Assembly: GCA_947631855.1 (NCBI GenBank)
Contig: CANRMX010000001.1
Location: 1 to 64,000 of the forward strand
Direction of reading: 5' to 3'
DNA length: 64,000 nt
DNA from: an uncultured Clostridia bacterium
Lineage (GTDB): Bacteria; Bacillota; Clostridia; Oscillospirales; Acutalibacteraceae
Shown here: piece after piece, positions 25,423 to 64,000 of the stretch
How the letters are laid out: every line of letters begins with the position of its first letter
Numbering within the stretch: the first letter of the stretch is position 1
The notes under the pieces: model-generated
Databases searched by the model: none
What the model saw: the letters and a program-made list of their open reading frames with translations, nothing else
What the model was told of the DNA's origin: nothing
Position numbers and translations under genes: made by a program

Positions 25423-25540
25423 GCCCATGTATCTAAAAACACGAGCCGAAGTGCGGATTCTTTTCTGTGATGTTCCTCACGCGAGATTCCCCATGCAGCA
25501 AGTGGGTGTGCAGGTACAATCTATTCAGGAGGTGCCGAGG

Positions 25541-25750: not shown

Positions 25751-25771
25751 GATTCAAACTTGACGAAAAGA

Positions 25772-25798
25772 AACCGGGTCTTTATGGCCCGGTTTTTT
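25772..25798 (+). terminator. Terminator of the cold-shock gene
   Basis: AACCGGGTC and GGCCCGGTT form a nine-pair stem with a TTTAT loop and six T. Very similar sequences (GGGTCTTTTATGGCCCGGTTTT and a variant) recur at about 25876 and 26041, so this terminator or its flank has been duplicated into the adjoining repeat island. Confidence 0.9.
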
Positions 25799-26062
25799 AT
25801 GTTTGTACTCGTGCTGATTTGTATTTATTTGTCCCCCCGCCCGTAGGGCGGGGGGACGGAGAAGAAAGGGCAGGGTCTTTTATGGCCCGGTTTTTTGCGG
25901 CCTGAGGCCGCTCTCACTTCGCGGGCTCCGTTCGCTCCGCTCACTTGCCGAGCAGAGGGCGCGGGGTTTTCGGTCGCGCCCGATAGAGATAGGAATGGTC
26001 TCCCCGCCCGTAGGGCGGGGAGACCGAGAAAGAAAAGGCAGGGTCTTTTTAGGCCCGGTTTT

Positions 26063-34300: not shown

Positions 34301-37283
34301 CTTCGGCATAGAAAGTCACGGTGGTGGTTTCATAGGGCACGGTCATTTTGTATTCCAGCTGCTCCGGCGAGAAAGTGGGATTCAACTCGCCCTCCTCACT
34401 ATACAGGGTGATTAACGAGGCGTCCGCCTTGAGCGGGTCGGGCGTAGGCGTGGGGGCTTTCGTCTCCCGGTGGACGGTGACGGTATATTCCTGCTTGGTT
34501 TTGCCATCCTCCGCGGTGACGGTGATGATAAACTCCGTGTCGCTGCCACCGGGGCCGAGATTCTTGCGATGGACGCGGTAAGTGGCTCCCTCTGCCGCTT
34601 CGGCGTAGAAGGTGACGCTGGTGACTTCATAGGGCACGGTCATGGTGTACTCGTGCTGTTCGGGTGCGAAAGCGGGCGTCAACTCCCCTTCCTCGCTGTA
34701 CAGGGTCAGCAGTGACGCATCGGCCTTGAGTGGGTCGGGTGTGGGCGTGGGGGCTTTTGCCTCGCGGTGTACCGTTACTTTGTACTCCTGCTTCGTCTTG
34801 CCGTCCTCTGCCGTCACGGTGATGATAAACTCGGTGTCGCTGCCGCCGGGGCCTAAGTTCTTGCGATTGACGCGATAGGTCGCGCCCTCCGCCGCCTCGG
34901 CGTAGAAGGTCACACTGGTGACTTCGTAAGGAACGGTCATGGTGTAGGCATGCTGGTCGGGGGAGAAATCGGGAGACAAATCCCCTTCCTCGCTGTACAG
35001 CATAGAAAGCGAAGCGTCTGAACTGGACGGAGGCGGTGTCGCTTTTGTCTCCCGGTGGACGGTGACAGTGTATTCCTGCTTGGTCTTGCCATCTTCCGCC
35101 GTCACGGTGATAATGAATTCCGTATCGCTGCCGCCCGGGCCAAGATTCTTGCGATTCACGCGATAAGTCGCGCCCTCTGCTGCTTCGGCGTAGAAGGTGA
35201 TGCTGGTAGTCGCGTAGGGCACCGTCATGGTGTATTCGTACTGGTCGGGGGAGAAATCAGGAGATAACTCTCCTTCCTCGCTGTACAGCATAGAAAGCGA
35301 AGCGTCTGAACTGGACGGAGGCGGTGTCGCTTTTGTCTCCCGGTGGACTGTCACCTTGTACTCCTGCTTGGTCTTGCCGTCCTCGGCTGTCACGGTGATA
35401 ATAAAATCGGTGTCGCTGCCACCGGGGCCAAGGTTCTTGCGGTTGACGCGGTAAGTGGCACCTTCCGCTGCCTCGGCGTAGAAGGTGATGCTGGTAACTT
35501 CGTAAGGCACGGTCATAGTATACTCGTGCTGGTCGGGGGAGAAATCAGGGCTTAACTCTCCGTCCTCGCTGTAAAGAGTGATCAACGAAGCGTCGGCCTT
35601 GAGCGGGTCAGGTGTGGGCGTAGGCGCTTTTTCCTCCCGGTGAACAGTAACTGTGTACTCCTGCTTGGTCTTGCCGTCTTCCGCCGTCACAGTGATGATA
35701 AACTCCGTGTCACTGCCGCCCGGGCCGAGATTCTTCCGATTGACGCGGTAAGTGGCGCTCTCCGCCGCTTCGGCATAGAAGGTAACACTGGTGATCTCAT
35801 AGGGCACGGTCATGGTGTACTCGTGCTGTTCCGACGAGAAAGCGGGCGTCAACTCCCCTTCCTCGCTGTACAGGGTAAGCAACGAGGCATCCGCCTTGAG
35901 CGGGTCAAGCGTGGGCGTAGGCGCTTTCGCCTCGCGGTGAACTGTCACCTTGTATTCCTGTTTCGTCTTGCCGTCCTCGGCGGTGACAGTGATTACAAAT
36001 TCAGTATCACTCCCGCCCGGGCCTAAGTTCTTGCGGTTCACGCGGTAAGTCGCGCCTTCTGCGGCCTCGGCGTAGAACGTCACACTGGTAGTCGCGTAGG
36101 GAACTGTCATGGTATAGTCGTACTGTTCAGGCGAGAACGCAGGTGTCAACTCGCCTTCCTCGCTGTACAGGGTGATTAACGAGGCATCCGCTTTGAGCGG
36201 GTCAGGCGTGGGCGTGGGCGCTTTGGCTTCGCGGTGAACTGTCACTTTATATTCCTGCTTCGTCTTGCCGTCCTCGGCGGTGACAGTGATGATAAACTCC
36301 GTGTCGCTCCCACCGGGGCCGAGATTTTTCCGATTGACCCGGAAAGTTGCACCTTCCGCCGCCTCGGCGTAGAAGGTAACGCTGGTAACCTCATAGGGTA
36401 CCGTCATGGTGTATTCATACAGTTCGGGCGAGAAATCGGGAGTTAATTCTCCTTCTTCGCTGTACAGCATGGAAAGCGAAGCATCCGTACTCGATGGCGG
36501 CGGGGTGGCTTTCGCCTCGCGGTGGACAGTGACAGTATACTCCTGCTTGGTCTTGCCGTCCTCGGCGGTGACGGTGATGATAAACTCGGTGTCGCTACCA
36601 CCGGGGCCAAGGTTTTTGCGATTGACGCGGTAAGTCGCACCCTCCGCGGCTTCAGCGTAGAAGGTAACGCTGGTGACTTCATAGGGCACCGTCATGGTGT
36701 ACGCGTGCAGGTCGGGGGAGAAATCGGGCGTCAACTCGCCTTCCTCACTGTACAACATCAACAGGGACGCGTCCGCGGAGGGCGGCGCTTCCACCGCAAA
36801 GGACAACTCCTGCCGCAGCTCCGTGTTGATGGGCTGGGCGGAGGGATCCACCGCGTCGTACACCCGCAGATAAAAGGAGGCTTCCACCGACGGCGCGTCC
36901 TCCCGCACCCGGAAAACGTAGGTGAAGGTTTCTCCCGCGTCGGTCAGGCTTGTCCGGGAATTGGCCATGGTGTATGCGGAACTCACCGTTCCATCGCCGG
37001 GACGGGTGACCACATAGCCCATCCCCAGCACCGCGGAGGCCTCGGTGCGCACATATTCAAAGCAGGAGGCGTCATAATCCACCCGCGTCAGGAACGCGCC
37101 GATGCTGTCCAGAGAACCGTCGTAATTGACCGTGAGGGTCACGCGATCTCCTGCGCCGCCCGCGACGGTGTTCAGAGAGCCGGAAAAAGCGAGTGTATTC
37201 CCCTGGGCCGGTTGGAAGATCCAAACGGGGCAGACAAGCGTGAGCAGCAAAGACAGCGCCGCGATGATGGCGGTTTTGCGCAT
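31386..37283 (-). CDS. Giant surface protein with 17 cadherin-like beta-sandwich repeats
   Basis: This is a 1965-residue exported protein. A signal peptide (MRKTAIIAALSLLLTLV...) is followed by a cohesin-like domain (about 30-165, 'SGSLNTVAGGAGDRVTLTV'). Seventeen repeats of 96 or 99 residues then match the cadherin-like beta sandwich family (PF12733): each holds MTVPYEVTSVTF, YRVNRKNLGPGGS and ITVTAEDGKTKQEYTVTVHRE. Two linker types (PTPTPDPLKA and TPPPSS) join them. A Pro/Thr/Lys-rich stretch, one membrane segment (VVVGILMLGGSILVAGPLAG) and a basic tail follow; there is no LPXTG motif. GAAGGAGG lies upstream of ATG 37283. It is probably a rigid surface stalk or adhesin; the partner is unknown. 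Confidence 0.85.
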   Translation of the reverse strand: MRKTAIIAALSLLLTLVCPVWIFQPAQGNTLAFSGSLNTVAGGAGDRVTLTVNYDGSLDSIGAFLTRVDYDASCFEYVRTEASAVLGMGYVVTRPGDGTVSSAYTMANSRTSLTDAGETFTYVFRVREDAPSVEASFYLRVYDAVDPSAQPINTELRQELSFAVEAPPSADASLLMLYSEEGELTPDFSPDLHAYTMTVPYEVTSVTFYAEAAEGATYRVNRKNLGPGGSDTEFIITVTAEDGKTKQEYTVTVHREAKATPPPSSTDASLSMLYSEEGELTPDFSPELYEYTMTVPYEVTSVTFYAEAAEGATFRVNRKNLGPGGSDTEFIITVTAEDGKTKQEYKVTVHREAKAPTPTPDPLKADASLITLYSEEGELTPAFSPEQYDYTMTVPYATTSVTFYAEAAEGATYRVNRKNLGPGGSDTEFVITVTAEDGKTKQEYKVTVHREAKAPTPTLDPLKADASLLTLYSEEGELTPAFSSEQHEYTMTVPYEITSVTFYAEAAESATYRVNRKNLGPGGSDTEFIITVTAEDGKTKQEYTVTVHREEKAPTPTPDPLKADASLITLYSEDGELSPDFSPDQHEYTMTVPYEVTSITFYAEAAEGATYRVNRKNLGPGGSDTDFIITVTAEDGKTKQEYKVTVHRETKATPPPSSSDASLSMLYSEEGELSPDFSPDQYEYTMTVPYATTSITFYAEAAEGATYRVNRKNLGPGGSDTEFIITVTAEDGKTKQEYTVTVHRETKATPPPSSSDASLSMLYSEEGDLSPDFSPDQHAYTMTVPYEVTSVTFYAEAAEGATYRVNRKNLGPGGSDTEFIITVTAEDGKTKQEYKVTVHREAKAPTPTPDPLKADASLLTLYSEEGELTPAFAPEQHEYTMTVPYEVTSVTFYAEAAEGATYRVHRKNLGPGGSDTEFIITVTAEDGKTKQEYTVTVHRETKAPTPTPDPLKADASLITLYSEEGELNPTFSPEQLEYKMTVPYETTTVTFYAEAAEGATYRVNRKNLGPGGSDTEFIITVTAEDGKTKQEYTVTVHREAKATPPPSSTDASLSMLYSEEGDLSPDFSPDLHEYTMTVPYATTSVTFYAEAAEGATYRVNRKNLGPGGSDTEFIITVTAEDGKTKQEYTVTVHREAKATPPPSSSDASLSMLYSEEEDLSPDFSPDQHEYTMTVPYEVTSVTFYAEAAEGATYRVNRKNLGPGGSDTEFIITVTAEDGKTKQEYTVTVHREAKAPTPTPDPLKADASLITLYSEEGELNPAFSPEQLEYTMTVPYETTTVSFSAETAEGATYRVNRKNLGPGGSDTEFIITVTAEDGKTKQEYTVTVHREAKIPTPTPDPLKADASLITLYSEEGDLSPDFSPEQLEYKMTVPYEVTSVTFYAEAAEGATYRVNRKNLGPGGSDTEFIITVTAEDGKTKQEYTVTVHREAKAPTPTPDPLKAGASLITLYSEEGELSPDFSPDQHEYKMTVPYETTTVSFSAETTEGATYRVNRKNLGPGGSDTEFVITVTAEDGKTKQEYTVTVHRETKAPTPTPDPLKADASLLTLYSEEGELTPDFSPDQHEYTMTVPYEVTSVTFYAEAAEGATYRVNRKNLGPGGSDTEFIITVTAEDGKTKQEYTVTVHREEKAPTPTPDPLKADASLITLYSEDGELSPDFSPDQHEYTMTVPYEVTSITFYAEAAEGATYRVNRKNLGPGGSDTEFIITVTAEDGTTKQEYTVTVHREAKAPTPTPDPLKADASLITLYSEEGELTPVFSPEQLEYTMTVPYETTTVSFSAETAEGATYRVNRKNLGPGGSESNFEITVTAADGQTKQTYTVLVHREAKAATPKPALTPKPTATAKSTATPKPAATAKSTAGGSTKTAAPQSTPAAGKIVVPDSSTQSPTTTATPTPTATAPPVSAATEAPANTADASPQPIVLRAGNSASAAPVVVGILMLGGSILVAGPLAGKLPGIGRKNPKDP
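31800..36770 (-). repeat. Seventeen tandem 288/297-bp coding repeats
   Basis: The cadherin-like modules repeat with periods of 297 bases (PTPTPDPLKA linker) or 288 bases (TPPPSS linker), with high nucleotide identity, and synonymous variants are shared between non-adjacent units. Confidence 0.9.
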
Positions 37284-51126: not shown

Positions 51127-52412
51127 GAACGAAAATTCGGCGATTTTTCGCGCTGCTGCTGGCGTGTACCGCAACGGTGCTTCTTTCCGCATGCGCCACC
51201 TCCGGGGATTCGGAAAGCCAGCATACCCTGACCCTGATGGGCAAGAAGACAGATTTGGAAAAGAGCTACATGATCCGGCTGTTCAAGCAGTATGAGGCTG
51301 CCACCGGCAACCGGCTGGAGATCATTTCCTTTGAGGATGCCGCATACGAGGACGAGGCCGCTGCCCGGTTTGAGCGGGGAGACGTCCCGGATGTGTTCCT
51401 GCATTTTAATAACGCCGAGCTCACCCGCTTTGACGTGCCCGCCAATTTCCGCTACCTCAACGATGAGACGTGGGTGGGGGAGCTGACGGACAGCGCCAAA
51501 GCCTACTGTCTGGATGGGGACGGGAATCTGCTGGGCCTGCCCTTCTGGGAGAGCTCCGTTTCCGGGTGCTACTACAACAAGACCATTCTGGACAGTCTGG
51601 GGCTGAAAGCCGCCACCACCCAGGCGGAATTCGATATGCTCTGCGAGACTCTGGCGGAGACGGGCTATACCCCGGTCTGCTGGCCCGTCGATGGGTGCTC
51701 CTGGATGCCGCAGTTCGGGCTGGACCCCATCTTTGCCGACGACCCCGCCCTGCTGGAGCAGCTCAACCGCAACGAGATCGGCTATGCCGACATCCCTGCG
51801 GTGACGGCCATGGTGGAGTGGATCGCGGCCGCCGCGGACAAGGGCTGGTTCGGGGACGACTATGCCGAGACCGGCTGGGATCAGATCGCCCCGGCCCTGG
51901 CCTCCGGCGACGCGGTGATGACCTTTATCTGGGACACCTGGTTCTATACGGACTTCAACGCGAAGGGCCCCTATACGGTGGAGGATTTTGCCCTGATGCC
52001 GGTTTTCATGAATACCGTGGAAGGCGGCACCTATGAGGGCGGCAACCTGAACATGATGATGGTCAACAAGAACAGCGGGCAGCTGGAGACGGCGCTGGAT
52101 TTCCTCGCTTTCTGCGCCGACCCGGAGAATTACAACATGGCCTTTGAGGGCGTCTCCACCGTCAGCTGCTTTCAGCGGCAGACCACCAACATCCAGTCCC
52201 ACATGGTTTCCGACGCCAGCGCCTCCGTGGCGGAAAGGGAGCGGGTCTCCACCGCCGCCACCCGGATCGTGGGCTACAACGCGGAGGACGTGATGGCCGC
52301 CCTGGACAGCCTGCTCAGCAAAAAGACAGACGTCCCGGGCTGCGTGGAGATGATGGGAGCCAGCCGCGCGCAGCGGATGACGCAGTCGCAGGCCAGCGCC
52401 CCGGCGGAATGA
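51123..52412 (+). CDS. Sugar-type solute-binding lipoprotein
   Basis: This is a 429-residue lipoprotein (lipobox LSAC) of the carbohydrate ABC solute-binding family (family 1). PFWESSVSGCYYNKTIL and the ALASGDAVMTFIWDTW motif are typical. It is translationally coupled to the upstream kinase and no permease gene follows, so it is more likely a ligand-presenting partner of a kinase sensor domain than part of a transporter. The ligand is unknown. Confidence 0.85.
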   Translation: MRTKIRRFFALLLACTATVLLSACATSGDSESQHTLTLMGKKTDLEKSYMIRLFKQYEAATGNRLEIISFEDAAYEDEAAARFERGDVPDVFLHFNNAELTRFDVPANFRYLNDETWVGELTDSAKAYCLDGDGNLLGLPFWESSVSGCYYNKTILDSLGLKAATTQAEFDMLCETLAETGYTPVCWPVDGCSWMPQFGLDPIFADDPALLEQLNRNEIGYADIPAVTAMVEWIAAAADKGWFGDDYAETGWDQIAPALASGDAVMTFIWDTWFYTDFNAKGPYTVEDFALMPVFMNTVEGGTYEGGNLNMMMVNKNSGQLETALDFLAFCADPENYNMAFEGVSTVSCFQRQTTNIQSHMVSDASASVAERERVSTAATRIVGYNAEDVMAALDSLLSKKTDVPGCVEMMGASRAQRMTQSQASAPAE

Positions 52413-52476
52413 CCGGCGCGAAATCCACAAACAGGTAAATAAATTGCCCGCGATTTACCGGCTTTTCTTTTCGCAT

Positions 52477-52510
52477 TTGACGCTTCTTTTGACCGGATGT
52501 CTGGTACACT
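52477..52510 (+). promoter_or_regulatory. Tandem promoter module 1
   Basis: TTGACG (52477-52482) and TTGACC (52489-52494) form a direct repeat of 12-base period, followed by an extended -10 TGG-TACACT (TACACT 52505-52510). The same spacing recurs in modules 2 and 3. Confidence 0.65.
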
Positions 52511-52516
52511 GAAGCC

Positions 52517-52600
52517 AGATCGAGGACCTTCTCCAACGGGTGGCCCCAATGGGACAACTTGCATACACTGGATTGTGGGGAAGGACCTCCCGGTCAAGCG
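52517..52600 (+). ncRNA. Candidate small RNA 1
   Basis: Just downstream of module 1, GAGGACCTTCTCC (52522-52534) is nearly complementary to GGGGAAGGACCTC (52577-52589), closing a domain of about 68 bases. No coding frame with a ribosome binding site is visible. It is predicted from structure and promoter position only. Confidence 0.4.
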
Positions 52601-52641
52601 TCAAAGAAATTTTCGTACTTTACCGTTTTTTGCTTTTAAAA

Positions 52642-52675
52642 TTGACGCTTCGTTTGACGATGGTCATGGTATACT
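52642..52675 (+). promoter_or_regulatory. Tandem promoter module 2
   Basis: TTGACG (52642-52647) and TTGACG (52654-52659), then TGG-TATACT (TATACT 52670-52675), with spacing identical to modules 1 and 3. Confidence 0.7.
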
Positions 52676-52682
52676 GTAGTCA

Positions 52683-52828
52683 CGATCAAGACACGAAACC
52701 GAACGCTTCTCTCCCCTGTACCCTTCCAGAGGATCCACGGAGACGCGGGCTGGAAAGAAAATTGGAGAGAAGACCCCTTCCCGAAAAAAGCGACAAAAAG
52801 CCGGGGGGGGGTTACCTGTTTTTCTATT
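52683..52828 (+). ncRNA. Candidate small RNA 2
   Basis: After module 2, CTTCTCTCC (about 52709-52717) and GGAGAGAAG (about 52763-52772) are perfectly complementary. Inside them TTCCAG pairs with CTGGAA. A CCCCTTCCCG / CGGGGGGGG stem and a T-rich tract (to about 52828) could end the transcript. No coding frame with support is seen. Confidence 0.45.
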
Positions 52829-52833
52829 AATTT

Positions 52834-52867
52834 TTGACGGTTCCTTTGACCGCCCGCCTGATATACT
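52834..52867 (+). promoter_or_regulatory. Tandem promoter module 3
   Basis: TTGACG (52834-52839) and TTGACC (52846-52851), then TGA-TATACT (TATACT 52862-52867), again with the same spacing. The following 60 bases are purine-rich and weakly structured. Confidence 0.65.
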
Positions 52868-52926
52868 GAATGTACGATCAGACAAGAGAAAAAGGGCGAA
52901 AGCACAAAAAATCTCCAAATTTGCTG

Positions 52927-52955
52927 TTGATTTTGACGAAGATACATGGTATACT
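52927..52955 (+). promoter_or_regulatory. Promoter of the pilus operon
   Basis: TTGATT (52927-52932) and TATACT (52950-52955) with a 17-base spacer and TGG before the -10. A TTGACG sits inside the spacer, a partial echo of the three modules upstream. Confidence 0.7.
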
Positions 52956-53017
52956 ATTCTTTAAAAATTCGATAGGGCGGTGCGCGGAGCCCCCTGAATG
53001 TTGGAGTTGAGGACAGC

Positions 53018-53707
53018 ATGGATGAGAAGGAATTCCGCAAGTTGCGCAAACAGGATTTTCTCGAACTGCTTTTGACGCAGGGACAGGAATTGTCGGAGCT
53101 TCAGCAGAAGTACGATGAGACGCTCCAGGAACTGGGGCTTACCAAGGAAAGTAATGAGCGGATCAAGATTCGCCTGGACGAAAAGGATGCGCTGATCGAA
53201 CGCCTCAAGGAACGGCTGGATGCAAAGGACGCGGAGATCCAGCGGCTGCACGACAGGCTGAACAGCCGGAAGATCGAGCTCCGGGAGGCCGGTTCCATCG
53301 CGATGGCGGCCCTGCAGCTCAACGGGATCTTCGAGGCGGCGCAGAAAGCGGCGGATCAATATCTTGAAAATGTCACAAAGCAGACGGATTCGGCTCCGCC
53401 GAGTCCCGACAGCGAAAACGGGGACGTCCCCGTTCAAGCTCCTGTGGAACAGGAGCTTGATGGAGACCTGACCACCGATCCCGAGGAGGAGGCCGCCGAG
53501 CAGGATCTGGCAGAAAAGCTGGAGCTCAACCGACAGCACGATCTGGAGGCGAAGGCCGAGGAGGAGCAGGAGCAGGAGAAAGCGGCAGCCCCCGCAGCCA
53601 CGGAGGAGCCGGAGGCTCCCGCCGAATCAGAGGGACAGAAACCCGGAGAGGAAAAGAAAGCGGAGAGTACACAGGCGGTAAAGAAACATTGGTGGCTCCG
53701 CAAGTGA
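53018..53707 (+). CDS. Coiled-coil protein with acidic tail, unknown function
   Basis: This is a 229-residue soluble protein. Residues 5-90 are a long heptad-type coiled coil (ELSELQQKYDETLQELGL, DEKDALIERLKERLDAKDAE). A short hydrophobic helix (SIAMAALQLNGIFEAAQKAA) and a Glu/Ala/Pro-rich acidic tail follow, ending in basic HWWLRK. There is no signal peptide or catalytic motif. As the first gene of the pilus operon, 34 bases before the signal peptidase gene, it may be a cytoplasmic or membrane-proximal assembly factor; this is inference. I do not recognise a named family with certainty. Confidence 0.7.
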   Translation: MDEKEFRKLRKQDFLELLLTQGQELSELQQKYDETLQELGLTKESNERIKIRLDEKDALIERLKERLDAKDAEIQRLHDRLNSRKIELREAGSIAMAALQLNGIFEAAQKAADQYLENVTKQTDSAPPSPDSENGDVPVQAPVEQELDGDLTTDPEEEAAEQDLAEKLELNRQHDLEAKAEEEQEQEKAAAPAATEEPEAPAESEGQKPGEEKKAESTQAVKKHWWLRK

Positions 53708-53741: not shown

Positions 53742-54332
53742 ATGAGCGAGAACAAAAACCAGGGGATATCCGTACCGACCAGAGGACAGCTGGAAGAGGC
53801 GCTGCAGAAGGAACGGTACAAAAGGCGTTACGGCAGTGTGCTGAGAAGCACCATCTTCTCCCTGATCGCTGTGGCGGCCGTGGCAGTCCTGATCGCAACG
53901 CTGCTGGTGCCGGTACTGCAAATCACCGGCAGCTCCATGACAGAAACGCTTCAGGACGGCGACATCGTGGTGGCGATCAAAGGCACCTCCTACAAGACGG
54001 GCGATGTGGTAGCTTTCTATTATAACAACAACATCCTGGTCAAGCGGGTGATCGCGACGGCCGGACAGTGGGTGAACATCGACGAAGACGGGACGGTCTA
54101 TGTGGACGATGTGGCGCAGGATGAGCCATACGTCAGCGAAAAAGCCTTTGGGGATTGCGATATCGATCTCCCCTATCAGGTGCCGGACGGCAGGTGCTTC
54201 GTGATGGGCGACCACCGGGCAACCAGTATCGACAGCCGGAACACGGCACTGGGATGCGTAAGCGATGAAATGATCCTCGGCAAGATCATGCTTCGGGTCT
54301 GGCCGCTGGAAACCTTAGAATGGATCAATTGA
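53742..54332 (+). CDS. lepB: Signal peptidase I
   Basis: This is a 196-residue type I signal peptidase with a single N-terminal membrane segment (STIFSLIAVAAVAVLIATLL). The catalytic Ser65 is in GSSMTETL and the Lys101 in LVKRVIATAGQ; the GDHRATSIDSR box is present. Being inside the pilus operon, it probably processes the pilin precursors, as in many Gram-positive pilus loci. Confidence 0.93.
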   Translation: MSENKNQGISVPTRGQLEEALQKERYKRRYGSVLRSTIFSLIAVAAVAVLIATLLVPVLQITGSSMTETLQDGDIVVAIKGTSYKTGDVVAFYYNNNILVKRVIATAGQWVNIDEDGTVYVDDVAQDEPYVSEKAFGDCDIDLPYQVPDGRCFVMGDHRATSIDSRNTALGCVSDEMILGKIMLRVWPLETLEWIN

Positions 54333-54384: not shown

Positions 54385-57300
54385 ATGGAACAATCCTTTT
54401 TGAAGCAGATGTCAGGGTTTTTGCGTGACAAGAAAAACCGTAAGCGCTACATCGCGGTTTTCCTGTGCCTGGCGTTGGTGGTGTCGCTGACGACCTTCGT
54501 GTCGCTGACGATGTCCGGTAATGCGCAGAATCACATGGTGAAAGTCCTTGACTGCAAATACGAGGCGCACAAGCACACCGCCGATTGCTACGACAAGGAG
54601 CATCCGGATCAGCTGATCTGCGGGTACGCCGATTACGCGGTGCACATCCATAACGACGACTGCTATGACGCCTCCGGCGTGCTGGTGTGCCAGCTTCCTC
54701 AGATCGAGCCCCACACCCACGATGAGACCTGCTACACCGAGGAAAAGACGCTCACCTGCGAACTGCCGGAGAGCGAGGGCCATGTCCATACCGAGGCGTG
54801 CTACACCACCGAACAGGGCGAATTGACCTGCACCGTGGAAGAACATACCCACAGCGAGGAGTGCTACGACGAGAACGGCGAAGTGATCTGCGGCAAGGAA
54901 GAGCACACCCATAACGAAGCGTGCTACGAGCAGATCCAGACCCTCACCTGCGAGATTCCCGAAGGCGAGGGCGCACACACCCATACCGATGACTGCTACG
55001 TCACGGAGAAGGAGCTCACCTGCGGCAAGCTGGAGCTGCACACCCACACCGAGGAGTGCTACCAGCATGACGAGGACGGCAAGCTGGTGCTGGCCAACGA
55101 CGCCGAGCTGGTGCTGGACGACGAAGGCAATCCCGTGTTCGACGAGGAGCATCAGCCCATCGTGATCTGCGGCATCCCGGTGCTGGAGGAGCACGTGCAC
55201 GGCGCGGACTGCTTCAAGACTGTGGAGCTCACCGACGAGGAAGTGGACGGCTTCGATACCCCCGAGACTTCCGAGGCTCCCGCCGAATCCGAAAGCTGCT
55301 ACGATGCAGAGGGCAATCTCATCTGCACCAAGGAAGAACATACCCACACCGAGGAATGCTACGACGAGGCCGCCGCTGAGATCGTCTGCGGCATGGAAGA
55401 GCACACCCACACCGCGCCCGCTCCCGCAGAAGCGGAGAGCTGCTACGACGCAGAGGGCAACCTCACCTGCACCAAGGAAGAACATACCCATACCGAGGAA
55501 TGCTACGACGAGGCCACCGCTGAGATCGTCTGCGGCAAGGAAGAGCACACCCACACCGCGCCCGCAGAGGCTCCCGCAGAAGCGGAGAGCTGCTATGATG
55601 CAGAGGGCAACCTCATCTGCACCAAGGAAGAACATACCCATACCGAGGAATGCTACGACGAAGACGGTACCCTGACTTGCGAGAAGGAAGAGCACGCCCA
55701 CACCGGGGCCGGCGAATCCAACGAGCCGGAAGAATTGACCAAGACCTATCAGGATAGCGGCGTGGTCATCACCGCCACCTACACCGAGGCGGCCAATATC
55801 CCCGAGGAGGCCGAGCTGATCGCCAAGGCCGTCACCAGCGAGACCGATCCCGAGCTGTATGCCCAGCGCATGGAGGAGGCTCTGCAGCACGTCACGCTGC
55901 CGGAGGACGCCGAAACGCCCAACATGCTGCTGTACAACATCGGCTTCTACGTGGACGGCGAAGAGGTTGAGCCCGCCGCGCCGGTGACCATCACCGTGCA
56001 GCTGCTCAACGCCGAAGGCTTCGCGGTAGGCGCGCCCATCACGGTGGTGCACTTCGCGGACGACGGCACCGAGGTGCTGGACGGCACCGCCCTCAACGAG
56101 AACAGCGAGACCACCTTCACCACGGATGGGTTCTCGGATTATGGCATTATGCCTGCGGCAAATGAGCCCACACCGATTGCTGAGACTCCCTCGTCCGGCG
56201 ACGCGAAGGGTTCTGGAACCTTTGCAGGTTTTATCACCGGCGTGGATTACTCCGGCGTAACCTATGACCCCCTGGCCGATGAGTGGTCGACCTGGTTCTC
56301 CATGTCCTTTAGCGCGAGTAAAGAGGAGCTTGCAAACGGGGGCTATGAATTCGACTATTACTTCCCCGAGGGATTTGAAGTTCCGGATTCGCTGTTGAAT
56401 AAGAAATATGATGATAGTGTAACTCCACCTCGGTTTACCTACGAGTTTTCTTATGACAATGAAGCCCACCGGTACAAAGTGCACTTGAAGTTTAATGAGA
56501 ATCAAATAGGGCCAACGGTTGGCGGCACGCTGTCGTTTGAAGCCAACGGCGGTCGTAAGGAAGGCTCGGGCGATCTGCACTATGATTTTAACGACCATGT
56601 TTCGATGGACGTACCCAGCCAAAATATCAAGCAGGAATACGACATTTCCGTCCGCAAGGAAGGCCACTACGATGCGGCGACAAAGACGCTCAAGTACACC
56701 ATCTATGTGGAGTCTCCCCACGGCACGGATGGCCCGATTGATTTGAATGACTACCTCCAGTGGGAAAGCAATAGCAATGGTTTGAAATTCACCGAGCTTA
56801 AAAGCGTCACAGTCAAAAAGCAAACTTATGCCTATCAGGACAATAGTGTAGAGCCTAAAGATATTGACTATTATCCGTCGGAACCAGGTGCAAGTGGTGA
56901 TGGCAATAGCCGCAAGTTCAACTTGCATCTGGAGCAGCTCCAGCCTCAGGATGGCTTGTCCACCCGGTATGTGATCACCTATGAATATAAGGTCGATGGT
57001 GACGTCACTGCGGATGCTGCCAAAGCGAAAAACAGCGTCGAGGCCAAAACGCCCGGCAAGGGCGGCGGCGGTTCCTCCTCCGTAGAGGTGAAGAACGATG
57101 TGCTCAGCAAGACGGCCTGGCAGAATAACAATGACGGTACCATCACTTGGAAGCTCTATGTAAACAAGTCTGGAATCAATATCGCGGGTTATACCCTGAA
57201 TGACGAGTTCTTTACAGAGTATTACATTAATCCTGCTAATATTGTTATTAGCCCTGGAGACAATGTTAGGGTTCTAAAAGATGAGAAGGGGAATCCGTAC

Positions 57301-59916
57301 ATTCAGTTCTATCCCATCGATGGTTCTGGGGAAAACCACACTACCTATGAGATCACGTACACTACGAAGATTGAGGATGACGATTACGGCAAGGAACTTG
57401 TCAACCACGCTGGAATGGTTGACCCAGAGGGTAAACCCGACTACAATACCGAACACGGCTTTACCCCGTCTAAACCGCCGGAGACCACAACGGAATACAA
57501 GCCACATGCTGAAAAGACCTGGGATAATGCGGATCATCTGTATCCCACCGAGGGTGGCAAGATAGCCCAATGGACCGTGAGGGTCCTCTTCCCTGATGAA
57601 TACGGTGGTATTTTCCCGAAAGGCGCTGTCTTTGAGGATAAGTTAGGCAATGATAGTGCAAATCAGTATATGACGTATGTTCAGTTTCTGGATCTTCTCA
57701 ATACGTTAAAAGAGCTGGGTATTTTGGATCATGTGAATACATTTGAGATCACTTGCGAGACGTATGGTCAGTCCATAGGGAGCGAGTGGACCCACGGAGG
57801 AAATAAGACGTCGCATCCATTTGATTTTAAAAACCGCAAGTCTTTAGACAGCCATGTTTTCAATGAGGACTGCACGATCAGTGGATTTAAGTTTACACTC
57901 CAAGACGATGTCACTCCTGACATGCTTAATGGCGGTAAATTTGAATTCACATACAAGAGCACTGTGGTGGTGCCCATAGACGACAAGACGGGCGAGCCGT
58001 CAGAAAATGGGGATGTTTGGTTCCTTAACGACTTTAATGGTGGTACAGCAGGTTATACACACCTCTACTTCGACACTGTAGACAAGAGCGATGGCAATGG
58101 TGTTGACAACAACGCAGAGGTGATGGTCGACAAAGAAGGCAACCTGGTTTGGAAGGTGCACATCGTTGTCAACAATGATCATAAAACGATTGTTGTAAAG
58201 GATAACCTGCCCACCGGAGAGGGTACTGAGGGCGGCCTCCAGTTGAAAAAGGTGGAGTACAGTTCTACGCACACTGGAAGTGGCACAACAGAAGAGCAGC
58301 CTGTCACTGACCGCTGGGAAGTCTCTGGCAGCCCGACTAAGGATGGCCTCACGTGGAAGTATGATGGAGGTACCGGCGAGTCGGTGCTGACGATCACAGA
58401 CCCTCAGAACACGACCAAGAAGACCGTCATCGAGGTGGTCTACACTTGCCAGATCACGGATAAAGGTATGCTGGATGCGCTGAACAATGGCACCTTTACG
58501 TCGCAGAAATACCAAAACACCGTGACGGTCTACTTCGACGACGACCCCACCTCCGATGAGGATACCCAGACCGTAGTCGGCAAGGTCGATGGCTTCAGCA
58601 AAGACAGGGTCGTGCAGAAGGCCGGCGAGTACGATGAAGTTGGGAGTAAGTTCACCTACAGCGTGCAGCTCAACCCCACCGGCGCAGATTTGCTTGAAGA
58701 CGTAGAGTTGCTGGACTTTGAAGACGAACTCAGCTACCAAGAGCAAGTGAAAATTGTTAACGACTACCAATTTACAACTGCAATTGTAGACGGGACGTTG
58801 GCCACTGCTCCAAAGTTGGAACCAGGTAAGTGGGAGGCATATAAGGTTCACGTATACTTTGAGCAAGCTTACGAGATAGATCCCTATTCGGTCAAGTTCT
58901 ATGAAGCTACGTTGAATCCTGACACCGGCGAATTGAAGAAGACGGGCGAAGCACTGACGGATATCGCCTGGTCCATCGACGAGGTCTATGACAGCGAGAC
59001 GGACACGGTCAAAAAGTATATTCGCGCCCAAGTGCCGGATGGAAAACCGTTGATCGTGGAGTATCAATACACTGCTAAAATGCTGGGATTCTATGCACGC
59101 GTGGATGATGATCCTACAAAATATAAAATCAATTATGGAGATATGAAAAAGTTCGTTGAAGAATTCCAAAAAGACAAATGGAACATAAGTGGTGATTTTA
59201 AATTCAATGTGAGCAACACCGCTAAGTTGACTGCCGACTTGACCGATAATTGGAAAGATAAAGTGGACTGGAAGTTCGCAGAAACCTTCGCCGTTTCCTG
59301 GACCGACGGCTTCAACGTGTACAAGGTAGACAGCGTCAACGCCAGCAACTTCCTTGCAGGCGCGGAGTTCACCTTGTATGATGAGGATGGCAAGCCGGTA
59401 GATGACGCCAAGGGCATCACCACCGACTGGAGCGGCAAGATCGTTGTGAGCTGCGAGGTTGACAGTAGTAACAACAAAATAAAGTACAAGTTTACTGACG
59501 CTAAAGACGATGTTCAACAAGATTGGGAGGTCGACGCCGAGAAGGATGCGTACTACTTCCTGAAAGAAACCAAGACCCCCACCGACTATAAGATCCCCGA
59601 GAAGGAGCGAATCGTTGTTCTGTGGTATCCTGGCAATGACGACACACCACTGAGTAATGAGCAAATTCTCGAAAAACTGCCGGATAACTTGAAAGAGGAC
59701 GGCCACACCTACGAAGTGATACTCATGCGGATGGACGACCCGAAGACGAACGCGTTCATCTACAACGAGCCCTCTCCCAACCCGGGCTACACCCTCCCCG
59801 AAACGGGCGGGGAAAGCACACACATGTATATGCTGGGCGGCGCGATGCTGCTGTTGCTTGCCGCGGCCCTTGCGTATAAGGCCAAGATTTCGGGAAGGAG
59901 GGTTTTCAGGGGTTGA
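54385..59916 (+). CDS. Giant LPETG pilus adhesin with HxHxxxCY repeats
   Basis: This is a 1843-residue wall-linked protein. A long signal peptide (membrane part YIAVFLCLALVVSLTTFVSL) is followed by an N-terminal region (about 50-450) with about a dozen HTHxxxCY units, each often followed by a Cys (LTCG or VICG). Large beta-rich domains with Ig and isopeptide character follow (about 590-1640), then a SpaA/CnaB-like domain (about 1640-1770, 'FNVYKVDSVNASNFLAGAEF'-type). The sorting signal LPETG is at 1804-1808, with a hydrophobic stretch and a basic tail. AAGGAGG lies upstream of ATG 54385. It is probably the tip or major adhesin. From about 56.2 to 59.7 kb the DNA is AT-richer than both gene ends. 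Confidence 0.88.
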   Translation: MEQSFLKQMSGFLRDKKNRKRYIAVFLCLALVVSLTTFVSLTMSGNAQNHMVKVLDCKYEAHKHTADCYDKEHPDQLICGYADYAVHIHNDDCYDASGVLVCQLPQIEPHTHDETCYTEEKTLTCELPESEGHVHTEACYTTEQGELTCTVEEHTHSEECYDENGEVICGKEEHTHNEACYEQIQTLTCEIPEGEGAHTHTDDCYVTEKELTCGKLELHTHTEECYQHDEDGKLVLANDAELVLDDEGNPVFDEEHQPIVICGIPVLEEHVHGADCFKTVELTDEEVDGFDTPETSEAPAESESCYDAEGNLICTKEEHTHTEECYDEAAAEIVCGMEEHTHTAPAPAEAESCYDAEGNLTCTKEEHTHTEECYDEATAEIVCGKEEHTHTAPAEAPAEAESCYDAEGNLICTKEEHTHTEECYDEDGTLTCEKEEHAHTGAGESNEPEELTKTYQDSGVVITATYTEAANIPEEAELIAKAVTSETDPELYAQRMEEALQHVTLPEDAETPNMLLYNIGFYVDGEEVEPAAPVTITVQLLNAEGFAVGAPITVVHFADDGTEVLDGTALNENSETTFTTDGFSDYGIMPAANEPTPIAETPSSGDAKGSGTFAGFITGVDYSGVTYDPLADEWSTWFSMSFSASKEELANGGYEFDYYFPEGFEVPDSLLNKKYDDSVTPPRFTYEFSYDNEAHRYKVHLKFNENQIGPTVGGTLSFEANGGRKEGSGDLHYDFNDHVSMDVPSQNIKQEYDISVRKEGHYDAATKTLKYTIYVESPHGTDGPIDLNDYLQWESNSNGLKFTELKSVTVKKQTYAYQDNSVEPKDIDYYPSEPGASGDGNSRKFNLHLEQLQPQDGLSTRYVITYEYKVDGDVTADAAKAKNSVEAKTPGKGGGGSSSVEVKNDVLSKTAWQNNNDGTITWKLYVNKSGINIAGYTLNDEFFTEYYINPANIVISPGDNVRVLKDEKGNPYIQFYPIDGSGENHTTYEITYTTKIEDDDYGKELVNHAGMVDPEGKPDYNTEHGFTPSKPPETTTEYKPHAEKTWDNADHLYPTEGGKIAQWTVRVLFPDEYGGIFPKGAVFEDKLGNDSANQYMTYVQFLDLLNTLKELGILDHVNTFEITCETYGQSIGSEWTHGGNKTSHPFDFKNRKSLDSHVFNEDCTISGFKFTLQDDVTPDMLNGGKFEFTYKSTVVVPIDDKTGEPSENGDVWFLNDFNGGTAGYTHLYFDTVDKSDGNGVDNNAEVMVDKEGNLVWKVHIVVNNDHKTIVVKDNLPTGEGTEGGLQLKKVEYSSTHTGSGTTEEQPVTDRWEVSGSPTKDGLTWKYDGGTGESVLTITDPQNTTKKTVIEVVYTCQITDKGMLDALNNGTFTSQKYQNTVTVYFDDDPTSDEDTQTVVGKVDGFSKDRVVQKAGEYDEVGSKFTYSVQLNPTGADLLEDVELLDFEDELSYQEQVKIVNDYQFTTAIVDGTLATAPKLEPGKWEAYKVHVYFEQAYEIDPYSVKFYEATLNPDTGELKKTGEALTDIAWSIDEVYDSETDTVKKYIRAQVPDGKPLIVEYQYTAKMLGFYARVDDDPTKYKINYGDMKKFVEEFQKDKWNISGDFKFNVSNTAKLTADLTDNWKDKVDWKFAETFAVSWTDGFNVYKVDSVNASNFLAGAEFTLYDEDGKPVDDAKGITTDWSGKIVVSCEVDSSNNKIKYKFTDAKDDVQQDWEVDAEKDAYYFLKETKTPTDYKIPEKERIVVLWYPGNDDTPLSNEQILEKLPDNLKEDGHTYEVILMRMDDPKTNAFIYNEPSPNPGYTLPETGGESTHMYMLGGAMLLLLAAALAYKAKISGRRVFRG
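55280..55690 (+). repeat. Near-identical tandem units in the adhesin His/Cys region
   Basis: Three units of about 144-150 bases begin near 55290, 55434 and 55584, each with AGCTGCTACGATGCAGAGGG (or a one- or two-base variant) and ending in GCACACCCACACC. They encode SCYDAEGNL, CTKEEHTHTEECYD and CGxEEHTHTAP. Confidence 0.85.
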
Positions 59917-60004
59917 CCGCATCCCGGAATCGCGGTGAAGCACCACAGGCACCAAAGAAGAAGCACGTACACAACACATTTTTCTCATGAAAGGAGAAAC
60001 AACA

Positions 60005-61771
60005 ATGAAAACCATGAAGAAACTGTTCAGCATCGTTCTGGTGCTGGCGCTGGTTCTCAGCCTTGGCATTTCTGCCATGGCGGCTGGGGAGAAGGTCTCC
60101 ATTAAGGTTGGCGTTCAAACCGATGAGAACGATGACAACGTCCACGAGTACAGCATTTTCCAAATCTTCAAGGGCACCCAAGCAGCAGGTGACGCAGAAG
60201 AGAAGCTGGCCTCTGTTGAATGGGGCAATGCCTTTACAGGGGATAATCTGAAAGCACTGAAAGAAGCATTAGCGGAAAAATGGCCCGATTACTTTGTGTC
60301 AGACACGCTGGCAAAACTGGCCGCTGAAGCGGGCATTCAAAGCCCAAATGAAGCCACCCAGTATGCTGCAGTTATTTCAAAGTACTTCCAGGGTGACTTG
60401 ACGAAAGCTACTGAACTGGCACACATTATTGCTAAATATGCTACCATTGCCCAGGGAAAGAAGATTAAGAGCGACGCTACTTCGGACGAAGACAAAACTG
60501 TTGAAGTTGACCCCGGCTTTTATCTGATTGTTGATACGACGATACCTGGTGCGGATGCAGAAGGTTTCGTATACAACGAGACTATTCTTCAAGTAACGGG
60601 TAACATCACTATCAAGGACAAATATGACGTTCCTTCTTCCAAGAAGAAAGTGCTGGACAATAATGATAGCGAAAAGCCTGTAACCGAAGTTACGCTCAAC
60701 AATGAAAATGGATTAGAGTGGCAGGACAGTGCTGACCATGATGTTGGTGATATTGTTTGGTTCAAATTGACCGGCACAATGCCTGAGGATCTTTATCGCT
60801 ATGACAAGTATGCGGTTACTTTCCACGATAAAGAAGGCGAGGGTCTCATCTTCAATTCGGCAAGTGTAAAGGTCAAAGTAGGAGATACTGAAATTACCGA
60901 TGGGTTTACAGTATTGACCCAAACAACTGACCCCAAGGCAAAAGATGCAGATTGCACTTTTGAGGTTGTCTTTGATGATGTTAAGGCTCTTAAGGGTGTA
61001 ACCGTAACTGATGGTACAGTTATCACTATTCTGTATTCTTGCACATTGAGTGGCGACGACGTTAAGTACGGCAAAGAAGGCAACCCCAACGAGATGCAGA
61101 TGGAATATACCAACAGCAGCACTAATGAAGGCACAGGCAAAACCCCTTGGGACAAAGTTATCGTCTTTACCTACAAACTGAATACCAATAAAGTTGATGG
61201 TCACAACGAGGCATTGGGCGGCGCTGGCTTTATCCTGCTGAAGGAAGTAGCTGAAGGTACTGAAGGCTATGCTGATGCAGTGGCAGTCGAGTGGAAAGAC
61301 CTTCATACCCAGGAGAACAATGCGCTTATCAAGTACAATGATGTTGTATACAAAGTTGTAAAGAATTATGGTGAAGTTAGCGCAAACACCAAGTTCGGTT
61401 TTGATGGGATTGATGATGGCAACTATCTGCTGGTCGAATCTATTGTGCCGGATGGGTACAACAAAGCTGACGATATGGAGTTCGTGGTTGGGGCTACCCA
61501 TGATGATGATTCAGAAAAGCCTGAACTGAAGGCGTTGACTGTCAAAGACAAGGCAGGCAATGATCTCGCTGCTGATGAGGAGACCGGAGCTTTCACTGTT
61601 GATGTGAACGCAGGTACAATCAGCAACGATGTTGTGAACCAGAGTGGCCTCCAGCTCCCCGAAACCGGCGGCATCGGCACCACCATCCTCTATGTGGTGG
61701 GCGGCGTCCTGGTGGCGGTCGCGGTGATCTTCCTCATCACCAAGAAGCGCATGGGCAAGGCCCAGCGCTAA
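60005..61771 (+). CDS. LPETG major pilin (isopeptide-forming fimbrial subunit)
   Basis: This is a 588-residue pilin precursor. The signal peptide starts MKTMKKLFSIVLVLALVLSL and is cut near SAMA. The N-terminal domain (VHEYSIFQIFKG...YLIVDTT-like pattern FYLIVDTTIPG) fits Gram-positive pilin backbone proteins, followed by CnaB-like domains (about 370-545). The sorting motif LPETG is at 551-555, then a membrane segment and KKRMGK tail. AAAGGAG sits eight bases before ATG 60005; an upstream in-frame ATG at 59987 overlaps that site and is less likely. The likely polymerising shaft subunit is joined by the downstream class C sortase. Confidence 0.9.
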   Translation: MKTMKKLFSIVLVLALVLSLGISAMAAGEKVSIKVGVQTDENDDNVHEYSIFQIFKGTQAAGDAEEKLASVEWGNAFTGDNLKALKEALAEKWPDYFVSDTLAKLAAEAGIQSPNEATQYAAVISKYFQGDLTKATELAHIIAKYATIAQGKKIKSDATSDEDKTVEVDPGFYLIVDTTIPGADAEGFVYNETILQVTGNITIKDKYDVPSSKKKVLDNNDSEKPVTEVTLNNENGLEWQDSADHDVGDIVWFKLTGTMPEDLYRYDKYAVTFHDKEGEGLIFNSASVKVKVGDTEITDGFTVLTQTTDPKAKDADCTFEVVFDDVKALKGVTVTDGTVITILYSCTLSGDDVKYGKEGNPNEMQMEYTNSSTNEGTGKTPWDKVIVFTYKLNTNKVDGHNEALGGAGFILLKEVAEGTEGYADAVAVEWKDLHTQENNALIKYNDVVYKVVKNYGEVSANTKFGFDGIDDGNYLLVESIVPDGYNKADDMEFVVGATHDDDSEKPELKALTVKDKAGNDLAADEETGAFTVDVNAGTISNDVVNQSGLQLPETGGIGTTILYVVGGVLVAVAVIFLITKKRMGKAQR

Positions 61772-62081: not shown

Positions 62082-62969
62082 ATGGCAAGATTTCTCAAGA
62101 GACACTGGTCCACCATTCTGTTGGGGGCCATATTGCTGGCGGGGCTTTCCTTACTGCTGTATCCCACCGTTTCCGATTGGTGGAATTCCTTCCACCAATC
62201 CCGCGCGGTGGCCAGCTACGTGGAGCAGGTGGCCAATATGTCCGACGCTCAGCGCGAGGCCACCATGGCCGCCGCCGAAGCATACAACAAGCGCCTGGCG
62301 ACCACCGGCACCCATTTCATCATCTCCGAAGAAGAGCAGGCCGAGTATGATTCTTTGCTCGATCTCACCGGCACCGGCATCATGGGCTATATCCAGATAC
62401 CCTCCATCAATGTCAACCTCCCCATCTACCACGGCACCGATGAAGCCGTGCTCCAGGTGGGCGCGGGGCACCTCACGGGCACATCCCTGCCCATCGGCGG
62501 CGAAAATACCCATTCGGCCATCTCCGGCCACCGTGGATTGCCCTCGGCCCGGCTTTTCACCGATCTGGACGACCTGGTGGAGGGCGATACCTTCACCGTC
62601 ACCGTGCTGGATCGTGTCATCACATACAAGATCGACCAGATCCGCATCGTCCTCCCCGAGGAGGTGGAGGGGCTCTCCATCGAGCGCGGCAAGGATTATT
62701 GCACGCTGATCACCTGCACGCCCTATGGCATCAACAGCCACCGTATGCTGGTGCGCGGCGCGCGCATCGAGAACGAAAAGGAAGCCGTGGTCATCGTGCC
62801 CGACGCCACGCGGATCAAAACCTATATCGTCATCGTATTGGTCGCGGTGCCGCTGATGTTTATTCTGCTGCTGGTGCTGCTGATCACGTCGAGCATCCGC
62901 CGCCCGAGAAAAACCACCTCGGAGCTGCTGGAAGCAGTTCAAGAAGAATCCCGAACCCAAAGAAAGTGA
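62082..62969 (+). CDS. srtC: Class C (pilus) sortase
   Basis: This is a 295-residue transpeptidase that polymerises pilins through their LPXTG motifs. Catalytic residues are His150 (SAISGHRGL), Cys212 (TLITCTPYG) and Arg225 (MLVRG). N- and C-terminal membrane segments and the C-terminal hydrophobic extension are the class C pattern. AAGGAG lies upstream of ATG 62082. The gene sits between its two kinds of substrate. Confidence 0.95.
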   Translation: MARFLKRHWSTILLGAILLAGLSLLLYPTVSDWWNSFHQSRAVASYVEQVANMSDAQREATMAAAEAYNKRLATTGTHFIISEEEQAEYDSLLDLTGTGIMGYIQIPSINVNLPIYHGTDEAVLQVGAGHLTGTSLPIGGENTHSAISGHRGLPSARLFTDLDDLVEGDTFTVTVLDRVITYKIDQIRIVLPEEVEGLSIERGKDYCTLITCTPYGINSHRMLVRGARIENEKEAVVIVPDATRIKTYIVIVLVAVPLMFILLLVLLITSSIRRPRKTTSELLEAVQEESRTQRK

Positions 62970-62981
62970 GGATGAGCGCCA

Positions 62982-64000
62982 ATGAAAGGAAAATGGAAGG
63001 TACTGACCGCGCTGTTGATGGTATGCCTTTTGGTGATTTGCACCCCGCGATTGACGGGCCCCGCCCGTGCAGTCGATCTGGACGCGGCCTGCGCCCTGAC
63101 GGTCACCGCCGGCAGCCAGGAAATGGCGGAGGATATCGCGGAGGCCGGGGTGGTCCTGGACCTGTATAAGGTGGCGGACGCCGTACCGGTATCCGGCAGC
63201 GACGCCTATGCCTACGAAGCGGCGGCGCCGTACAGCGGGCTTGTCATCCCCGCCCAGCCCACCCAGGAGGATTGGGCAACCCTGGAGCAGCAGGCGGCGG
63301 CCATTGCCCTTTCCGGCGGCGATACGCCTTTTGCCGCCGAGCAGCAGCCCAATGAAAAGATCGAGAGCCTTTCTGCGGGGCTTTATCTGGTGGTGGCCCG
63401 GGGCGCCGGCCTTGAGGAATACACCACCACCGTCACCGGCGACGACGGCGTGGAAAAGCTGGGCACCCTGGCGGAATCCCGGGTGAACCGCTACACCTTC
63501 CTGCCCGAGCTGGTGTCCCTTCCCGGCAAGGCCGCGGATGAGGACGGCGTGTTGAATACGGCGAATCCCGGCGACTGGCTCTACGAGGTGGAGATCACCC
63601 TCAAGCCCGAGCAGGATTCCCGCCTGAGCAGCATCGAGATCGTCAAGACCCTGACCGGCTTCAATGGCACGGAGCCCGCCACCTTCGTCTTCTCCGTGGA
63701 GGCGACGTACCGGGATCAGCCGGTGTACAGCAACGTGGTGCCCATGGTGTTCACCGGCGCGGGCACCCAGCGCGTCACCGTGGAGGGGCTGCCCATCGGC
63801 GCGGAAGTCACCGTCACCGAGGTCTATTCCGGCGCGTCCTATGCGCTGGTCACGGCGGATTCTCAGAACGCCGTGGTCTCCGCCGAGGAGATCGTCTCCG
63901 TAGAATTCACCAATACGCCTACCACGGAACGGAAGGCGGGCGGCTCCATCACGAACCGTTTTGCATACGACGCGGAGGGCGGCTGGACTTGGACGCCCAT
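62982..64000 (+). CDS. Pilin-like surface protein, cut by the window edge
   Basis: The first 339 codons of a longer gene; no stop occurs before the end of the window. A signal peptide (MKGKWKVLTALLMVCLLVIC, cut near RAVD) is followed by a pilin-like N-terminal domain ending with 'GLYLVVARG' and a module from about 185 with IEIVKTLTGFNG and ATFVFSVEA, a pattern seen in FctA/DUF7601-type isopeptide pilin domains. The start ATG 62982 is 13 bases after the sortase stop. It is probably an accessory or basal pilin. The missing C-terminus should contain a sorting signal. Confidence 0.8.
   Translation, partial: MKGKWKVLTALLMVCLLVICTPRLTGPARAVDLDAACALTVTAGSQEMAEDIAEAGVVLDLYKVADAVPVSGSDAYAYEAAAPYSGLVIPAQPTQEDWATLEQQAAAIALSGGDTPFAAEQQPNEKIESLSAGLYLVVARGAGLEEYTTTVTGDDGVEKLGTLAESRVNRYTFLPELVSLPGKAADEDGVLNTANPGDWLYEVEITLKPEQDSRLSSIEIVKTLTGFNGTEPATFVFSVEATYRDQPVYSNVVPMVFTGAGTQRVTVEGLPIGAEVTVTEVYSGASYALVTADSQNAVVSAEEIVSVEFTNTPTTERKAGGSITNRFAYDAEGGWTWTP

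Follow-up and report, generated by a model that had tools for sequence, protein, structure and literature searches.

Three tandem modules in the 64-kb stretch of DNA analysed here (the window) are probably SARP-type operator-promoters that drive the pilus operon beginning at position 53018, and this operon would probably be autoactivated by a SARP-like regulator encoded at its end. The repeated promoter architecture, with its TTGAC direct repeat, can be read directly in the sequence, as the preliminary description had reported. The pattern TTTGACG-N5-TTTGACS-N10-TAyACTG has three exact matches in the window, starting at 52476, 52641 (there ATTGACG) and 52833, against a mean of 0.01 matches over 100 shuffles, none of which held three. 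The repeat unit measures 59 nt (family D1, 52455-52870), and its second and third copies are 68% and 75% identical to the first. Each module comprises two heptamers 12 bp apart, ten bases, an extended -10 and then a G, with TTACC 22 nt upstream of the first TTGACG together with a T-rich tract. The heptamer pair is TTTGACG-N5-TTTGACC in modules 1 and 3 and ATTGACG-N5-TTTGACG in module 2, and the extended -10 is present in all three (TGGTACACTG, TGGTATACTG and TGATATACTG). Module 1 (52455..52513, forward strand; matrix score 41.7) has TTTGACG at 52476-52482 and TTTGACC at 52488-52494 (TTGACG at 52477-52482, TTGACC at 52489-52494), the extended -10 TGGTACACT with TACACT at 52505-52510, a putative start at A52517 and GATC at 52518. 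Module 2 (52620..52678, forward strand; score 40.6) has ATTGACG at 52641-52647 and TTTGACG at 52653-52659 (TTGAC repeats at 52642 and 52654), the extended -10 TGGTATACT with the -10 at 52670-52675, a putative start at A52682 and GATC at 52684. Module 3 (52812..52870, forward strand; score 43.1) has TTTGACG at 52833-52839 and TTTGACC at 52845-52851 (TTGAC repeats at 52834 and 52846), the extended -10 TGATATACT with the -10 at 52862-52867, a putative start at A52874 and GATC at 52876. The starts are placed at these adenines because a purine is conserved seven bases past the -10. Measured from them, the heptamers lie at about -41 to -35 and -29 to -23 and so overlap the -35 region, and the hexamers found at 17-nt spacing (GCTTCT, GCTTCG and GGTTCC in modules 1, 2 and 3) are non-consensus, as had been claimed. 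The search spacing suggested earlier, N15 between TTGAC and TAYACT, has to be corrected: it recovers none of the three modules because the real gap is N11.

All three modules point toward the pilus operon, whose genes are likewise on the forward strand. The first (53018..53707) codes for a coiled-coil protein, the relatives of which start M-TEKEFRKLNRREVLQLLL; it is followed by genes for a signal peptidase I (Peptidase_S26, 109 bits; 53742..54332), an 1843-residue Cys/His-rich LPXTG surface protein with a SpaA fold domain and repeats like HTHTEECYD (54385..59916), a pilin-like LPXTG protein (by eye, LPETGG; 59987..61771), a sortase (92.5 bits; 62082..62969) and a further pilin-like protein (62982..63998) that runs off the window, the cluster continuing on contig C1. 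Type IV pilus or secretion-like genes (GspF-like, pseudopilin-like and a PilT-like ATPase, by eye; L075:4546-9212) separate the sortase pilus genes from the SARP gene. An ordinary-looking extended -10 promoter, TTGATT-N17-TATACT (52927..52955, forward strand), lies nearest the first pilus gene. Upstream of the modules, three genes were judged by eye to encode hybrid histidine kinases and another encodes a binding protein; the imperfect hairpin with a T-rich tract at 52429..52464 (forward strand; inverted repeat I2, 83% complementary; fold z -1.01; no call in the terminator scan) is possibly their terminator. Elsewhere in the window, a cspA thermoregulator at 25412-25800 (82.7 bits, gathering 78) is the only Rfam match at gathering, and a 1965-residue protein of many near-identical repeats (MLYSEEGELTPDFSPDQHEYTMTVPY...), encoded on the minus strand at 31386-37283, is probably a surface protein.

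A scoring matrix was built from 25 sites, some from the same or sister genomes and not all independent of one another; the own-genome site C10:35533 was left out. The 12-bp repeat unit occurs at all 25 aligned sites, where it is imposed by the search pattern. Columns left free in the patterns are also conserved: T precedes the first TTGACG (position -1) in 24 of the 25 sites, C follows it in 19, G closes the second heptamer in 18, and the T and G of the extended -10 are found in 19 and 20, respectively. Further upstream, A at -20 occurs in 18/25 sites and C at -18 in 19/25, and the position seven bases past the -10 (+1) is a purine in 23/25 (18 A, 5 G). On reversed sequence no score exceeded 8.1 in 285 kb, and none reached 10 in 1.43 Mb. 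Four sites were found by the matrix rather than by a pattern: L190 (26.7), which lies 15.5 kb upstream of a regulator paralogue and has a coiled-coil gene directly after it, L154 (20.2), and L218 (23.8) and L219 (19.3), which adjoin dif-like repeats and were located through those repeats.

The link to the pilus operon is borne out in other genera, where the same element adjoins genes for pili or surface proteins. When one genome per species (84,980 species; no control was run for that collection) was scanned for exact matches, 13 were obtained, 11 of them in nine genomes of the Lachnospiraceae, the family of Lachnotalea and Acetatifactor. Every one of these 11 sites adjoins sortase-pilus or giant surface-protein genes as in the window: the neighbours code for coiled-coil, signal-peptidase or giant proteins like the window's, except at L049, where a different giant surface protein comes first and pilin-like genes after it. 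Neither of the other two, from Bacteroidota (L050) and Enterococcus (L052), adjoins a pilus operon. Scanned whole, the nine Lachnospiraceae genomes held 20 sites, against none in the reversed control. Seven of the nine new sites are at pilus or surface-protein genes (L112, L116, L117, L121, L123, L124 and L125); L122 is not at such genes and L118 lies inside a gene. In G863's family (298 genomes), a search tolerating one mismatch gave 11 sites in eight genomes, against nine in the reversed control, and six of the 11 are credible (L111, already known, L143, L144, L146, L148 and L149). The one-mismatch pattern thus has a chance background, from which gene context, judged by eye, separates the signal; L118, L141, L142, L145 and L147, all inside genes, were rejected as chance. 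The site L122 (score 37.6) precedes a gene for a 233-residue membrane protein.

Altogether, 32 distinct sites outside the window score at least 25, and 26 of them were judged, by eye, to lie beside pilus or large surface-protein genes. Four are not at such genes (L122, C10:35533, L052 and L118), and the remaining two, at a contig end (L065) and in a virus (L059/L060), were counted in neither group. Most sites were found through the motif, so that its presence is selected in this sample and its gene context is not. Gene calls in the relatives come from our own ORF and codon-bias scripts and are a guide, not an annotation, because the scripts missed the regulator gene of the window's genome and misread frames in L156. 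Two observations count against a strict association: relatives of the first pilus gene have no motif within 1.5 kb in 21 other genomes, and C10:35533, a strong site of the window's own genome, precedes no recognisable gene. On this comparative evidence the element is a conserved promoter of pilus operons. A phage origin of the element was considered and set aside. Five viral contigs match a looser pattern; two of them, L059 and L060, are the same sequence (score 28.6) and may carry a chance match or a captured promoter.

Closer to the window the element is sparse. The own genome is a single MAG (1.84 Mb, 81% complete), and the triple repeat is known from its assembly alone; tandem copies of the promoter were found at no other locus examined. 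With the looser -10 form this genome has four exact matches, the three modules and C10:35533, and the reversed control none. The fourth strong copy, C10:35533 (L004:1501, L074:9533; score 35.2), is directed toward a convergent gene, release-factor-2-like by eye, whose 3' end it faces, and no gene is clear between the two; the stretch downstream of the copy has GCCAGATCGAGG in common with module 1, and the copy possibly drives a regulated RNA. Among 29 genomes of the genus, the own genome included, a scan with TANACTG and one mismatch matched only the own genome and, once and chance-like, G010, with no matches in the controls. The family scan (398 genomes, own included, up to one mismatch) gave 13 sites in ten genomes, four of them own, and most of the other nine may be chance because the reversed control gave six. 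Context was read for three of these family sites: L066 lies before a coiled-coil gene, a signal peptidase and a giant protein, L062 before a large secreted protein, and L065 at the end of a contig. The sites L066 and L062/L224, from other genera of the window's family, adjoin pilus or surface-protein genes.

The candidate activator is encoded outside the window, on the same contig and about 21 kb downstream of module 1 (C1:73218-74444, that is L075:9218-10441), and is followed by a companion gene (C1:74441-74929) that matches nothing in Pfam or NCBIfam. Its product has an OmpR-type winged helix (Trans_reg_C, 26.5 bits, cut-off 26.2), a BTAD domain (42.7 bits, cut-off 22.1) and a degenerate GGDEF domain, detected below threshold (19.5, cut-off 23.8); this conserved C-terminal domain is possibly a nucleotide sensor. 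A SARP-like gene ends all eight pilus operons that could be read through, the window's included, and the companion was called in seven; several other operons ran off the contig or the fetched DNA. In L129, L134, L137, L150, L151 and L152 the operon finishes with a relative of the regulator (50-60% identity), and in L220 with another. On shared contigs the site and the regulator gene are 12-21 kb apart. When 74 genomes were searched with a profile, the regulator scored at least 510 bits in 14 of the 15 motif-bearing genomes (G1005 being counted through a split match of 394 + 161 bits), and the relatives in the 59 others reached at most 347 bits. These 59 comprise 28 members of the genus, the 30 consecutive genomes G864-G893, which are no random draw, and G107, in which only the pilus contig was checked for the motif; G010 and G870, also among them, have one one-mismatch match each, counted as chance. 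Genomes of the family that carry a site, G461 for example, lie outside the test. Without the seven genomes used for the profile, seven of eight motif-positive genomes still reach at least 510 bits.

Several cases count against a strict pairing of regulator and motif. G856 has the motif but only 279-bit relatives of the regulator; the operon G858:C15 has a strong regulator but a degenerate site (7.4); in G264, 15.9 kb upstream of a strong regulator gene were read without pilus genes (L195); and where the motif accompanies a giant surface-protein gene that stands alone (L154, L158, L221 and L223), no regulator gene follows. Approached from the regulator side, the DNA upstream of 20 relatives, 11 in motif-bearing genomes and nine in others, contained one convincing site, L190 (26.7), and a match of 17.3 within a gene in a motif-negative genome (L202). 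Genes were read in nine of the 20 regions: L191 contains a pilus operon whose site is degenerate (7.4), L189 is cut off by the contig edge just ahead of its first pilus gene, and in L195-L198, L200 and L202 no beginning of a pilus operon was seen. The test is thin in this direction because one of two testable operons was positive.

The factor that reads the modules could be another one. That they are promoters of the pilus operon whose direct repeat is bound by a kinase-driven response regulator or some other activator seems to us rather unlikely. The three hybrid histidine kinases and the binding protein directly upstream would suit such a factor, and the promoter assignment itself is independent of which protein binds; however, the response regulator examined in that cluster is an HD and GGDEF protein with no DNA-binding domain by Pfam, which also speaks against the earlier suggestion that the modules and the c-di-GMP locus have a regulator in common. 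Strong relatives of the upstream binding-protein gene turned up in just two of 147 other genomes, G004 and G124, of which G004 lacks the promoter site. The SARP-like gene tracks the motif across families. Recognition by an alternative sigma factor, in place of sigma-A and an activator, is very improbable. The strict spacing and the conserved element around -35 could be so explained, but TGnTATACT is the standard extended -10 of sigma-A, the type found here, and the element is a direct repeat reaching TTACC near -60, more like an activator site. A Spo0A-like box was also considered and rejected, the core of the Spo0A box being TTGTCGAA and the heptamer TTTGACG. The proposal that these are activator-dependent promoters, in which the direct repeat replaces the -35, is supported, with a SARP-like protein as the probable activator; the regulator at the cluster end belongs to a family known to bind such repeats.

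It had further been proposed that modules 1 and 2 may give rise to small RNAs that are paralogous, co-controlled with the pilus operon and closed by long complementary arms. As a whole this is distinctly unlikely, and its parts fare differently. Module 2 has stable arms of its own: the segment 52768-52832 folds at -23.1 kcal/mol (z -3.9 vs mononucleotide shuffles), with a G+C-rich hairpin at about 52774-52811 (forward strand, between modules 2 and 3, also seen in an earlier fold) before the T-rich tract TTACCTGTTTTTC. A terminator scan of 52300-53100 returned no sites; it missed this hairpin because it accepts only loops of 3-8. With a stable hairpin and a T-rich tract so placed, transcription from module 2 may terminate or be attenuated at that point, so that a short RNA or an attenuator is possible. 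Module 1 does have complementary arms, a perfect 10-bp inverted repeat (52476-52485 / 52596-52605), but one arm sits in the promoter, upstream of the start; the other belongs to the inverted half-operator TTTGACGCTTGACCGG (52590..52605, minus strand; inverted repeat I3 with a 10-bp perfect core), which is complementary to module 1 and lies downstream of its start. The strong fold of 52470-52612 (z -4.65) likewise uses promoter DNA absent from the module's own transcript. Folded from near their putative starts (52511, 52681 and 52869), modules 1, 2 and 3 gave z -0.68, -1.97 and +0.44, and the mononucleotide-shuffle folds of modules 1 and 3 gave z -0.68 and +0.72; module 2 is modestly stable, and modules 1 and 3 fold like shuffles and show no terminator hairpin. 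Rfam yields no match to the intergenic stretch at gathering, and the matches below that threshold are at chance level; the seven of 147 other genomes that matched this stretch did so over 20-43 bases (E 0.003-0.008), none compellingly. The site C10:35533, facing a short stretch before a convergent gene, would fit a small-RNA promoter, but in other species the promoter is single and at coding genes. Leaders of a similar kind occur in G862, where all four that were folded (L124, L121, L116 and L053, in which the promoter precedes giant surface-protein genes) carry a hairpin and U-tract about 165-180 nt past the putative start, a candidate attenuator or antitermination element; leader attenuation may therefore be a wider theme. 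Terminator scans of the leaders of three relatives gave one weak match.

We infer binding, activation, autoregulation and a role for the triplication from sequence, and the mechanism that we favour can be outlined as follows. The SARP-like regulator would occupy both heptamers as a pair, on the same face of the helix, stand in for the missing -35 contact and recruit sigma-A RNA polymerase, with transcription starting at the A seven bases past the -10. The loop would be positive because the regulator gene ends the cluster that its product would activate. Three operators in series might increase expression or lend more cooperativity to its onset. Transcripts begun at modules 1 and 3 would continue into the pilus operon as leaders, and the hairpin at 52774-52811 may attenuate the one begun at module 2.

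In relatives, the same promoter often appears to be invertible. Eight Lachnospiraceae sites (L043, L044, L046, L047, L048, L049, L117 and L123) lie between inverted repeats of 22-30 nt, mostly of the dif-like type ACCNCATAATNNNNATTATGNGGT; the promoter points toward the operon in L043 and L117 and away from it in the other six. A tyrosine recombinase gene is adjacent in seven of the eight, and in the genome of L046 its relative is on another contig. Among 15 genomes, the six with the repeat pattern all have a recombinase relative of at least 318 bits, and the nine without it reach at most 274 bits. An invertible element in the window itself was ruled out: positions 52300-53100 contain no flanking inverted repeats of 18 nt or more, and the dif-like pattern, with up to one mismatch, is absent from the own genome (G000). 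Elsewhere in that genome, contig C37 (L217:10098-11300) holds a candidate inverton, with a related tyrosine recombinase at C37:10119 and 20-bp perfect inverted repeats 231 bp apart, followed by another adhesin-like gene; this contig has no site of the SARP-type promoter. In G1056 (L222 and L223) promoter sites lie beside genes that, by eye, encode resolvase-type serine recombinases and surface proteins; this may be an inversion switch of another type. A pilus switch of the Clostridia can tentatively be imagined, in which a SARP at the operon end acts on a TTTGACG operator-promoter at its start that a recombinase flips in many Lachnospiraceae; in the window's species the flip might have been replaced by three fixed tandem operators, with cooperative autoactivation, perhaps nucleotide-tuned through the degenerate GGDEF domain, giving the on/off behaviour that elsewhere comes from inversion of the DNA. 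We regard this broader scheme as possible, if well short of probable.

Lachnospiraceae are common gut bacteria, and to our knowledge little is known of how their surface is regulated. An unexplained repeat becomes a testable regulon, with one promoter code and one candidate activator, which would cover sortase pili and giant surface proteins in the Lachnospiraceae and in the window's own family; it would tie together two layers, DNA inversion of the promoter and an operon-encoded activator, and comes with a scoring matrix of low background in the DNA searched. The literature matches listed for SARP or BTAD with sortase or pili, and for inverton with pili or Lachnospiraceae, do not describe the system.

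The Lachnospiraceae sites resemble the invertons of gut bacteria in that eight of them lie between dif-like inverted repeats, in both orientations and mostly beside a tyrosine recombinase gene. The window differs, since it has no such repeats and its three promoters all face the operon, and the candidate inverton of its genome is separate (C37) and without a promoter of the SARP type. The activator cII of phage lambda binds a short direct repeat straddling a poor -35. The modules would be activated in the same manner, by analogy of mechanism only, for the protein family, the period and the repeat are all different. The closest likeness is to SARP or AfsR-type promoters of Streptomyces, in which two direct heptamers (or three), separated by spacers of 4-15 nt, overlap the -35 region and a regulator with an OmpR-type winged helix and BTAD domain is encoded in the cluster that it controls (PMC10972967, PMC5930380). 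PimR needs two heptamers, with one monomer on each (PMC5930380). The modules share these features, having a 5-nt spacer, heptamers over a non-consensus -35 and, in L075:9218-10441, a cluster-encoded protein with winged helix and BTAD domain. The classical repeat unit of 11 bp is usual and not obligatory, PimR also using 10 (PMC10972967, PMC5930380); that of the modules is 12 bp. In contrast to the Streptomyces systems, the heptamer here is TTTGACG, the regulator has a degenerate GGDEF C-terminus, the promoters lie beside genes for sortase pili and giant surface proteins and not in antibiotic clusters, and in the window's genome three complete promoters stand in series.
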